DNA of 64,000 nt from Pelagibacterium limicola. Its GTDB lineage: Bacteria; Pseudomonadota; Alphaproteobacteria; Rhizobiales; Devosiaceae. The stretch lies in contig NZ_JADQDB010000005.1 in the NCBI RefSeq assembly GCF_015694405.1, forward strand, positions 210,589-274,588. The letters are read 5' to 3'. The translations under genes were made by a program, and so were the position numbers. Of the stretch, positions 1 through 61,060 are shown piece by piece. Within the stretch, counting starts at the first letter, position 1. Every line of letters begins with the position of its first letter. The notes under the pieces are model-generated. The model was not told where the DNA came from and made no database searches. It worked only from the letters and a program-made list of their open reading frames with translations.

Positions 1-110
1 ACGTTCTCGATCCTTTCGCTAACCACCAGTGACCTCAGGGGTTGCGGGATCGAAGACCGCAGGCCCGAACGCGCGCGAAGACTCGCGGACGCACGGCCGG
101 TCCAAATCCC
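1..110 (-). other. Leader of an FMN-controlled gene lying off the left edge
   Basis: This stretch continues the minus-strand transcript between the FMN aptamer and its gene. It holds GC-rich sequence able to fold, which is likely to be the expression platform, and an AAAGGA ribosome binding site at about 11-16. That site places the start codon at or just beyond the window edge. The gene itself is not visible. Alphaproteobacterial FMN aptamers usually precede riboflavin synthesis genes or a riboflavin importer, so that is the expectation rather than something seen. Confidence 0.5.
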
Positions 111-252
111 GTTCTCTTCCATCCGGACTATGACCGTCGGCTTCGGAATCGCACCGAATCTGCTGACCCTTTCCAACAGGAAAGGCGCTCGCGGGCTTCG
201 GGCATTGGAGCCCGTTACCGCCGGTGGGGACTTCCACCCCGCCCTGAGAACG
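111..252 (-). promoter_or_regulatory. FMN riboswitch (RFN element)
   Basis: Read on the minus strand, this region carries the conserved RFN blocks in order: CAGGGCGGGGTGGAAGTCCC, CACCGGCGGTAA, AGCCCGCGAGCG, a variable stem, GGTCAGCAGATTCGGTG, TTCCGAAGCCGACGGTCATA and GTCCGGATGGAAGAGAAC. These are the junction and helix sequences of the FMN aptamer. FMN binding would repress the gene to the left, outside the window. The aptamer family is secure. Whether control is by termination or by hiding the ribosome binding site cannot be decided without the start of the gene. Confidence 0.95.
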
Positions 253-288
253 TCTATGCGGCACTTCATCGTGAAGCGCCGATGAAAT

Positions 289-331: not shown

Positions 332-364
332 AAAAAAGGACCACCCGGATTTCGAGTGGTCCTT
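332..364 (-). terminator. Rho-independent terminator
   Basis: On the minus strand a 7-bp stem GGACCAC/GTGGTCC (356-362 with 338-344), extended by two A-T pairs, is followed at once by a run of six T. It ends the transcript coming from the right, either the small RNA/peptide unit at 422-527 or sulP read-through. It insulates the FMN-controlled gene from upstream transcription. Confidence 0.85.
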
Positions 365-421
365 CCATGATACCGTCACGCAAAGAGTGACTGAACCATC
401 AGATGGTTCGGAGGAAGAAGA

Positions 422-499
422 TCAAAGCGCCGAGGGCTGCCTCGCCGCTATCACCTCACACCCAAAGCCGCTCCCGCCTGCGCGGATCTCACTAGACAT
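422..499 (-). CDS. 25-aa unknown peptide with an extreme Shine-Dalgarno
   Basis: The ORF runs from ATG to TGA and encodes a peptide starting MSSEIRAGG, with one cysteine, four arginines and a GGSGFG stretch. It has no membrane segment or recognised domain. The reason to call it is the translation signal: 15 bases upstream of the ATG (501-515) are exactly complementary to the 3' tail of 16S rRNA, with AGGAGG seven bases from the start. Chance is an unlikely explanation for so long a match at the right spacing. The peptide might be functional, or ribosome recruitment itself could be the function, for example regulation of the RNA. Function unknown. Confidence 0.45.
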   Translation of the reverse strand: MSSEIRAGGSGFGCEVIAARQPSAL

Positions 500-607
500 T
501 GGATCACCTCCTTTCAACTGGTTGAAAACGGTTACAATGCTGCCTGCGTTCTTGATGCATGACAAGCCCATATCGACCGGGGATCGGCGCGAAAGCGCAG
601 TTCACAA

Positions 608-626
608 ATCGGTTTTTCTTACCGAT
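608..626 (-). terminator. Weak hairpin after sulP
   Basis: A 6-bp stem ATCGGT/ACCGAT with a 7-base A-rich loop lies about 30 bases past the sulP stop and is followed by TTTG on the minus strand. It may be a leaky terminator. If so, part of the sulP transcription would continue into the small RNA region. Confidence 0.3.
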
Positions 627-657
627 AATGCGCGCGCTGATCGGGCGGCGCCCGCTT

Positions 658-56482: not shown

Positions 56483-56490
56483 GCCCCGAC

Positions 56491-56590
56491 CGAGGGGAGC
56501 CCCGACAGGGGGCTGAGATTCTGCCGGCCGCATAGCAGCGCAGTGACCCTTTGAACCTGATCCGGATCATGCCGGCGAAGGGACGGGCAC
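56491..56590 (+). promoter_or_regulatory. TPP riboswitch upstream of thiD
   Basis: The conserved THI-box blocks are present in order: GGGGAGCCCC and GGGGGCTGAGATTCTG, a variable stem, then GACCCTTTGAACCTGATCCG and ATCATGCCGGCGAAGGGA. Thiamine pyrophosphate binding should repress the downstream gene. About 170 bases separate the aptamer from thiD, and the gap contains a 43-codon ORF. Confidence 0.95.
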
Positions 56591-56633
56591 AGGCGCCTTA
56601 TCCCTTTTGCCGGCCGCACCGTCGAGGGCGCCC

Positions 56634-59048: not shown

Positions 59049-61050
<2,002 letters not shown>

Positions 61051-61060
61051 TGAAGGCTGC

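Follow-up and report, generated by a model that had tools for sequence, protein, structure and literature searches.

A conserved RNA gene with a long Shine-Dalgarno sequence and a kept short open reading frame in Pelagibacterium limicola and other Alphaproteobacteria

Introduction

A short stretch on the minus strand of the Pelagibacterium limicola genome carries 15 bases complementary to the 3' tail of 16S rRNA next to a small ORF, which raises the question of whether the locus encodes a peptide or an RNA that works through the ribosome. It lies near the beginning of the window, that is, the whole stretch of 64,000 nucleotides that was analysed. The original prediction left the choice between a highly translated peptide and an RNA for ribosome recruitment or regulation. 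The present analysis found the ORF to be kept open and favoured the RNA over the peptide, because conservation of the peptide is weak at best and the ORF is overlapped by covarying structures. The preferred reading, to which we give a probability of roughly 0.55 on sequence comparison (any guess at a target excluded), is a translated structured RNA whose folding would compete with the entry of ribosomes and whose peptide would be incidental.

Layout of the locus

By sequence, positions 332–566 of the minus strand can be read as a complete small transcription unit, from a −35/−10 pair through a terminator, with the following features:

561–566, minus strand: −35 element CTTGTC (sequence)
537–542, minus strand: probable −10 element CAGCAT with an 18-base spacer, placed by eye from the spacing and the upstream regions of relatives
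511–528, minus strand: 5' leader hairpin of 7 bp, 528–522 with 517–511 (fold)
501–515, minus strand: 15-base Shine-Dalgarno (SD) sequence GAAAGGAGGTGATCC (515–501), complementary to the whole 16S 3' tail (sequence)
422–499, minus strand: 25-codon ORF MSSEIRAGGSGFGCEVIAARQPSAL, stop included (ATG 499–497, TGA 424–422)
489–492, minus strand: 5' arm of helix P1, GUGA, codons 3–4 (alignment of relatives, helix 2 of alignment A1)
431–444, minus strand: hairpin P2, CGAGG(CAGC)CCTCG, at the end of the ORF (covariation in 53 relatives)
410–414, minus strand: CCTCC downstream of the stop, possible internal anti-SD (SD complementarity counts)
393–409, minus strand: post-stop hairpin 1, variable among relatives (sequence and fold)
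375–391, minus strand: post-stop hairpin 2, variable among relatives (sequence)
367–370, minus strand: 3' arm of P1, UCAU, at the foot of the terminator (alignment of relatives)
332–364, minus strand: Rho-independent terminator with six T at 337–332 (fold, script, and covariation)

Transcription would start near position 530. The 15-base 16S complement, the 25-codon ORF, the 7-bp hairpin at the SD, the two hairpins past the stop, and the closing terminator had all been predicted and could be read at these positions. The predicted distance of seven bases to the ATG fits the GGAGG core, while a single base (A500) separates the full 15-mer from the start codon. The terminator was recognized from the fold and by script; a consensus terminator scan of 200–1000 listed none. 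The leader hairpin overlaps the first bases of the SD and measures about 3–7 bp among relatives (by eye), some of which have no leader hairpin. Comparison of the fold of the unit with shuffled sequences revealed 3 of 200 shuffles that folded equally well or better (z = −2.26). Judging from their conservation in relatives, the 16S match and the unit are more than a product of chance.

On the plus strand the same bases read GGATCACCTCCTTTC, and an antisense RNA copying the anti-SD in this way had been proposed as a decoy. The sole promoter-like site listed in 200–1000 (601–629, plus strand) points away from the element, and conservation tracks the start, stop, and terminator of the minus strand; the decoy thus found no support and is extremely improbable.

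Relation to CC2171 and distribution in Alphaproteobacteria

The unit aligned with the Rfam family RF01867 (Caulobacter sRNA CC2171) over positions 1–159 of the 159 model positions, with 42.3 bits and an E-value of 7.7e-7. CC2171 reportedly comes from Landt et al. 2008, and Rfam files RF01867 as an sRNA. The likeness lies in this full-length alignment, which takes in the SD block and the terminator, whereas the helix sequence beside the start codon is not alike and the score stays below the cut-off. The gathering score of 75 was not reached by the window copy, which is absent from the three gathering-threshold matches of the window, or in any of the 136 family genomes (0/136). No other Rfam family overlapped the element at E ≤ 1. 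A bridging member (L193), found by the model R1 that was built from relatives of the window unit, scored 90.5 bits against RF01867. By homology, the window unit is continuous with above-cut-off RF01867 members, and it is counted here as a relative rather than as a member. When the loci of 18 relatives were scanned, 15 gave RF01867 at E ≤ 1 and three (L173, L187, and L194) gave none there; two other Rfam families listed in these loci sit away from the element.

In the open-licence literature searched, neither the ORF nor the 16S match was described for this family in the passages available. Passages of PMC5596092 report MH_s33 of Mesorhizobium huakuii, a 215-nt RNA-seq transcript annotated as RF01867. 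BjsR3 of Bradyrhizobium has, according to passages of PMC5082802, a widely shared terminator and was hence considered as a possible counterpart.

The covariance search suggested along with the original prediction was strongly positive for related RNAs across the family, the order, and the class. Of the 136 family genomes, 115 have RF01867 at E ≤ 0.001, most of them as a single match, and R1, the model from 53 relatives, matched 278 of 397 genomes of the order at E ≤ 0.01. Across the class, R1 gave matches at E ≤ 0.01 in 134 of 385 genomes, 94 of which reach 1e-6 (hand count, including the window's genome), and the class-wide model R2 gave matches in 90 of 260 genomes, with 59 at or below 1e-8 (hand count, including the window's genome). 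At the level of the phylum, R2 matched 83 of 269 genomes at E ≤ 0.001, 23 of them (hand count) from other classes, where the best match (3.6e-7, genome G903) aligned over the full R2 model; every match listed below 1e-7 belonged to the window's class, and model matches above about 1e-7 are often terminators alone. As R1, R2, and RF01867 all score the SD, the independent tests are the ORF, P1, and the neighbouring genes only.

Named holders among the matches listed included Sphingomonas, Novosphingobium, Ruegeria, Methylobacterium, Mesorhizobium, Bradyrhizobium, and Brevundimonas. The peptide of a Pelagibacterium luteolum locus (L303) was identical to that of L116 from a genome of the window's genus (G124). 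Not all pattern matches are true members, an example being an Azospirillum locus with a 59-codon ORF (L302), and a few such doubtful matches, L302 among them, were kept in the class-wide set. One duplicate (L004) and four loci judged non-members, with ORFs of 77 or 16 codons (L039, L041, L042, and L050), were left out before the codon counts. The 142 family and order members still contain near-identical copies, and the diverse members used below were thinned by k-mer similarity alone.

A few genomes had two full-length matches, among them G523 (C1:805100-805257 and C1:2921845-2922081) and G079. The pattern of SD and start was also seen on six viral contigs (L346–L351), of which L346, L347, and L349 encode Bradyrhizobium-like peptides and L351 the peptide of a Brevundimonas locus. 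These copies may be host DNA at the margins of prophages.

Evidence for an independent gene

Of 105 diverse members, 49 have a CTTG motif 45–75 bases before GGAGG, compared with counts of 11 and 8 for two control stretches lying still farther upstream. Terminators accompany 138 of the 142 members from family and order and 246 of the 283 class-wide ones; the other 37, without a terminator by the rule applied, were dropped before the class-wide ORF-length, −35, and P1 counts. Rule-based analysis of the flanking ORFs returned mostly singletons, and most clusters were confined to one genus. The exceptions included an ABC-transporter cluster spanning two genera, a MerR-like gene (our reading) upstream in three genera of the family (L065, L071, and L079), and a release-factor-3-like gene (our reading) downstream in L066 and L070. 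Conserved in this way across differing neighbourhoods, the element is almost certainly a free-standing RNA gene.

An FMN riboswitch (117 bits) lies just downstream at window positions 107–255 on the minus strand, and leads into an EamA-family transporter gene beyond the start of the window, probably a riboflavin transporter. Two TPP riboswitches above the Rfam cut-off were also present in the window, at 56483–56600 (plus strand) and 60939–61058 (minus strand).

The position of the unit directly upstream of the FMN riboswitch and transporter gene, on the same strand and in an arrangement that recurs inside the genus, would suit a leader or attenuator of the downstream gene. However, downstream genes mostly differ among genera and are often on the opposite strand, and the unit is closed by a strong terminator. 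We rejected a cis-regulatory leader on account of the varied neighbours and the lack of a conserved downstream gene, and regard it as very improbable.

RNA structure

In the alignment of 53 relatives, 92.3% of cells pair and both partners have changed in 17 of the 18 pairs, for a structure that was drawn by us on the same alignment on which it was counted. The covariation score of 0.433 was reached by none of 500 shuffles, and sliding by one column lowered the pairing to about 53%. In these relatives, the terminator had 97.9% of its cells paired and double changes in 8 of 8 pairs, and P2 had 93.6% of its cells paired and double changes in 4 of 5. By these alignment counts, the covarying structure is real. 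The loop of P2 alternates between CAGC-like and GUGA, and this switching suggests a structural rather than a target-binding role.

P1 pairs codons 2–6 with the terminator foot. The four inner pairs were formed in 87.7% of cells, with double changes in all four, and the outer fifth pair in 55.3%. A P1 helix score of at least 5 was obtained in 74 of 113 diverse members (39/113 fell below it), compared with 19% of swapped arms. There were 46 different arm pairs, including GTGAG/CTCAC, CATTGTC/GACAATG, CATGGTT/GACCATG, CATCG/CGATG, and CACCG/CGGTG. Among 228 distinct members, the duplex energy of the members' own arms averaged −12.9 versus −7.9 for swaps, with 61 members beating all of their own swaps and 121 falling in the best 5%. 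The P1 of the window itself is weak, with about 4 bp including a G-U pair and a duplex rank of 0.15 among swapped arms.

In Rhodobacterales-like loci, the stop codon touches the 5' arm of a P2-like hairpin (by eye).

The open reading frame and its peptide

The frame behind the anti-16S site stops after 13–31 codons in 112 of 113 diverse class members, compared with 28 (+1) and 13 (+2) of 113 in the control frames and an expected 35% of shuffles. A start codon was present in all 142 family and order members (ATG 88, GTG 52, TTG 2), with ORFs of 22–31 codons, and starts survive small indels that precede them, as in GGTCCAAGTG and GATCCCAGTG. ORF length is narrow within lineages; 18 codons were counted in 55 of 123 pattern matches. 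Since the ORF is kept open in this manner, it is very probably translated.

Conservation of the peptide was a different matter. For codon positions 1, 2, and 3, the rates of change came to 0.235, 0.253, and 0.294 in the largest group (g5). The window's genus gave 0.20, 0.19, and 0.13, and the remaining family and order members 0.375, 0.375, and 0.369. Position 3 changed least in Sphingomonadales-like (0.36, 0.39, 0.27) and Rhodobacterales-like (0.30, 0.29, 0.25) loci, and in one other small group it fell between positions 1 and 2. Position 3 being hardly freer, if at all, these rates lent no support to a micropeptide under ordinary purifying selection. In g5, residue identity was 0.64 in frame 0 versus 0.50 and 0.53 in the other frames, and exchanges in frame 0 were milder by BLOSUM62 (−0.51 versus −1.52 and −1.38); in group g1, position 3 and residue identity point the opposite way.

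A message for a fast-evolving peptide of 14–31 residues that acts in the cell, with structures that only stabilise or tune the message, has to be considered. Its case draws on the open ORF of narrow length, the recurrence of MSSE and EQPS-like ends, and, in the largest group, a slightly freer position 3 and milder frame-0 exchanges, which make a weak peptide constraint possible there. Outside that group, however, change at position 3 does not exceed that at positions 1 and 2 and is often lower. The recurring residues MSSE, EQPS, and MSHC are encoded by structural elements, the MSSE and EQPS-like ends belonging to P1 and P2. In L090, L028, and L095, the P2 sequence that codes for EQPS was found in another frame. 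Different orders encode unrelated peptides (MSHGSA.., VSRKVLERGVGT.., and VSYLKRCHLAGIAR). Database searches returned no Pfam match at E ≤ 1 for two peptides and no NCBIfam match for four. A micropeptide message is on balance rather unlikely, and within the translated structured RNA the peptide is fairly likely to be incidental, an estimate tempered by the small position-3 excess of the largest group. Keeping the length of an ORF while hardly keeping its sequence suggests, on these counts, that being translated matters more than the product.

In the Sphingomonadales-like loci L231, L244, L247, and L263, the 18-codon ORF ends in a helix that spans the stop, e.g. TATCGC/GCGATA (by eye). Such a helix would explain the HYR ending that recurs in these loci.

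The Shine-Dalgarno sequence and the 16S tail

The complement of the 15-mer is present at this locus alone in the window's own assembly, and the 16S tail is not readable there. The 16S tail pattern was exactly matched in 4 of 136 same-family genomes, each time as GCGGCTGGATCACCTCCTTTC, which is complementary to all 15 bases. The motif AAAGGAGGTGATCCA with an ATG within 6 bases occurred once in the 3.47-Mb genome, and the reversed control pattern 0 times. Among 60 RF01867 matches of the family, AAGGAGGTGATCC was exact in 51 and the remaining 9 had one mismatch; these matches were fetched without the SD pattern, although the Rfam model itself contains the SD. The order-level pattern search and the scan of named genomes require both SD and start, and thus cannot demonstrate SD conservation. 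The idea that the base opening the start codon (A/G) covaries with the 16S base opposite it was also considered and was rejected, because the four genomes with a readable tail span both start types and all have C at this position.

In 135 distinct RNAs, the mean unpaired value predicted for the SD was 0.21; most of it is paired in these predictions, mainly with the leader, and a 15-base 16S complement could compete with this pairing. Longer SD sequences are less efficient in E. coli than one of six bases (PMC2176067), so a role of the long match in maximal expression is unlikely and the "highly translated" of the original prediction is doubtful.

In the family and order set, 59 of 129 distinct segments following the stop contained at least six SD-complementary bases, compared with about 5.5% of shuffles, and such a CCUCC would suit anti-SD action in trans in this set. 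An internal anti-SD for the whole class was rejected, as the enrichment in the family and order set contrasts with its absence from several class members (by eye). In Rhodobacterales-like loci (L229, L238, L264, L267, and others), a CACCTCC-like anti-SD stretch often stands just before the terminator (by eye).

These features could also belong to a sponge, whose long SD holds 30S subunits or pairs with sRNAs that carry an anti-SD (CCUCC), such as alpha-R8; its binding would alter the translation of other messages, and translation of the ORF would be a by-product. The near-invariant 16S complement of 13–15 bases exceeds what initiation needs, going by PMC2176067. CrfA of Caulobacter sponges the anti-SD sRNAs SisA-D according to passages of PMC12559287, and CCUCC follows the stop in many family and order members. 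A sponge, however, has no need of a stop 13–31 codons downstream, yet the stop is kept; the mostly paired state predicted for the SD and a single match in most family genomes speak against it as well. We consider the sponge quite unlikely.

Proposed mechanism

In the translated structured RNA, the free-standing gene would yield an RNA of about 200 bases built for ribosome binding and translation. A 30S subunit positioned on a start codon occupies about 15 bases at the beginning of the ORF. It would here cover the 5' arm of P1, and a ribosome terminating at the stop codon would cover P2. Because of these footprints, ribosome occupancy and folding would exclude each other, giving an open state occupied by the ribosome and a closed one. 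The ORF would be a ride for the ribosome, with a peptide that is probably incidental. As a guess, the closed or released RNA may act in trans as an sRNA or may be degraded differently, and its activity may follow ribosome availability. From the positions of P1 and P2, gating of folding by translation is proposed tentatively, at somewhat under even odds. A class-wide housekeeping RNA that senses free 30S subunits, with a 15-base SD and a disposable ORF that would turn its fold, and with it its activity or life span, into a direct read-out of initiation capacity, is an unlikely extension of this idea. For comparison, 6S RNA is tied to RNA polymerase.

Several observations were counted against the translated RNA. 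Ribosome profiling in Caulobacter found most intergenic ncRNAs untranslated, in passages of PMC4117421 that do not name a CC2171-type RNA. The weak P1 of the window, the 39 of 113 members without a P1 score of 5, the peptide signal of g5, some neighbours common to genera of the family, and the drawing of the structure on the counted alignment were weighed on the same side.

Comparison with known systems

Conservation throughout an entire bacterial class is rare among RNAs. The present one has so far been recorded, as far as we searched, only as an sRNA family that takes its name from Caulobacter and is uncharacterised. The gene family is real, conserved, and mostly uncharacterised. Its reach, a kept ORF with a largely free peptide, and structures at the start and stop codons appear, as far as searched, not to have been combined before. 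If the proposed reading is true, this kept start, stop, and length of the ORF together with a largely free peptide would be an unusually clean case of translation for its own sake.

A comparable case is rnTrpL/peTrpL of Sinorhizobium meliloti, a dual-function sRNA and leader peptide, which according to passages of PMC10117765 is a small alphaproteobacterial RNA with a translated 14-codon ORF. However, rnTrpL is leaderless and tied to trpE, whereas the window RNA has a long SD, no fixed neighbouring gene, and a hardly conserved peptide. Regulation that involves SD and anti-SD motifs within the same class is exemplified by the alpha-R8 sRNAs SisA-D and the sponge CrfA of Caulobacter (passages of PMC12559287). 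SisA-D carry the anti-SD motif, in contrast to the window RNA, which carries the SD itself together with a start codon and a kept ORF.
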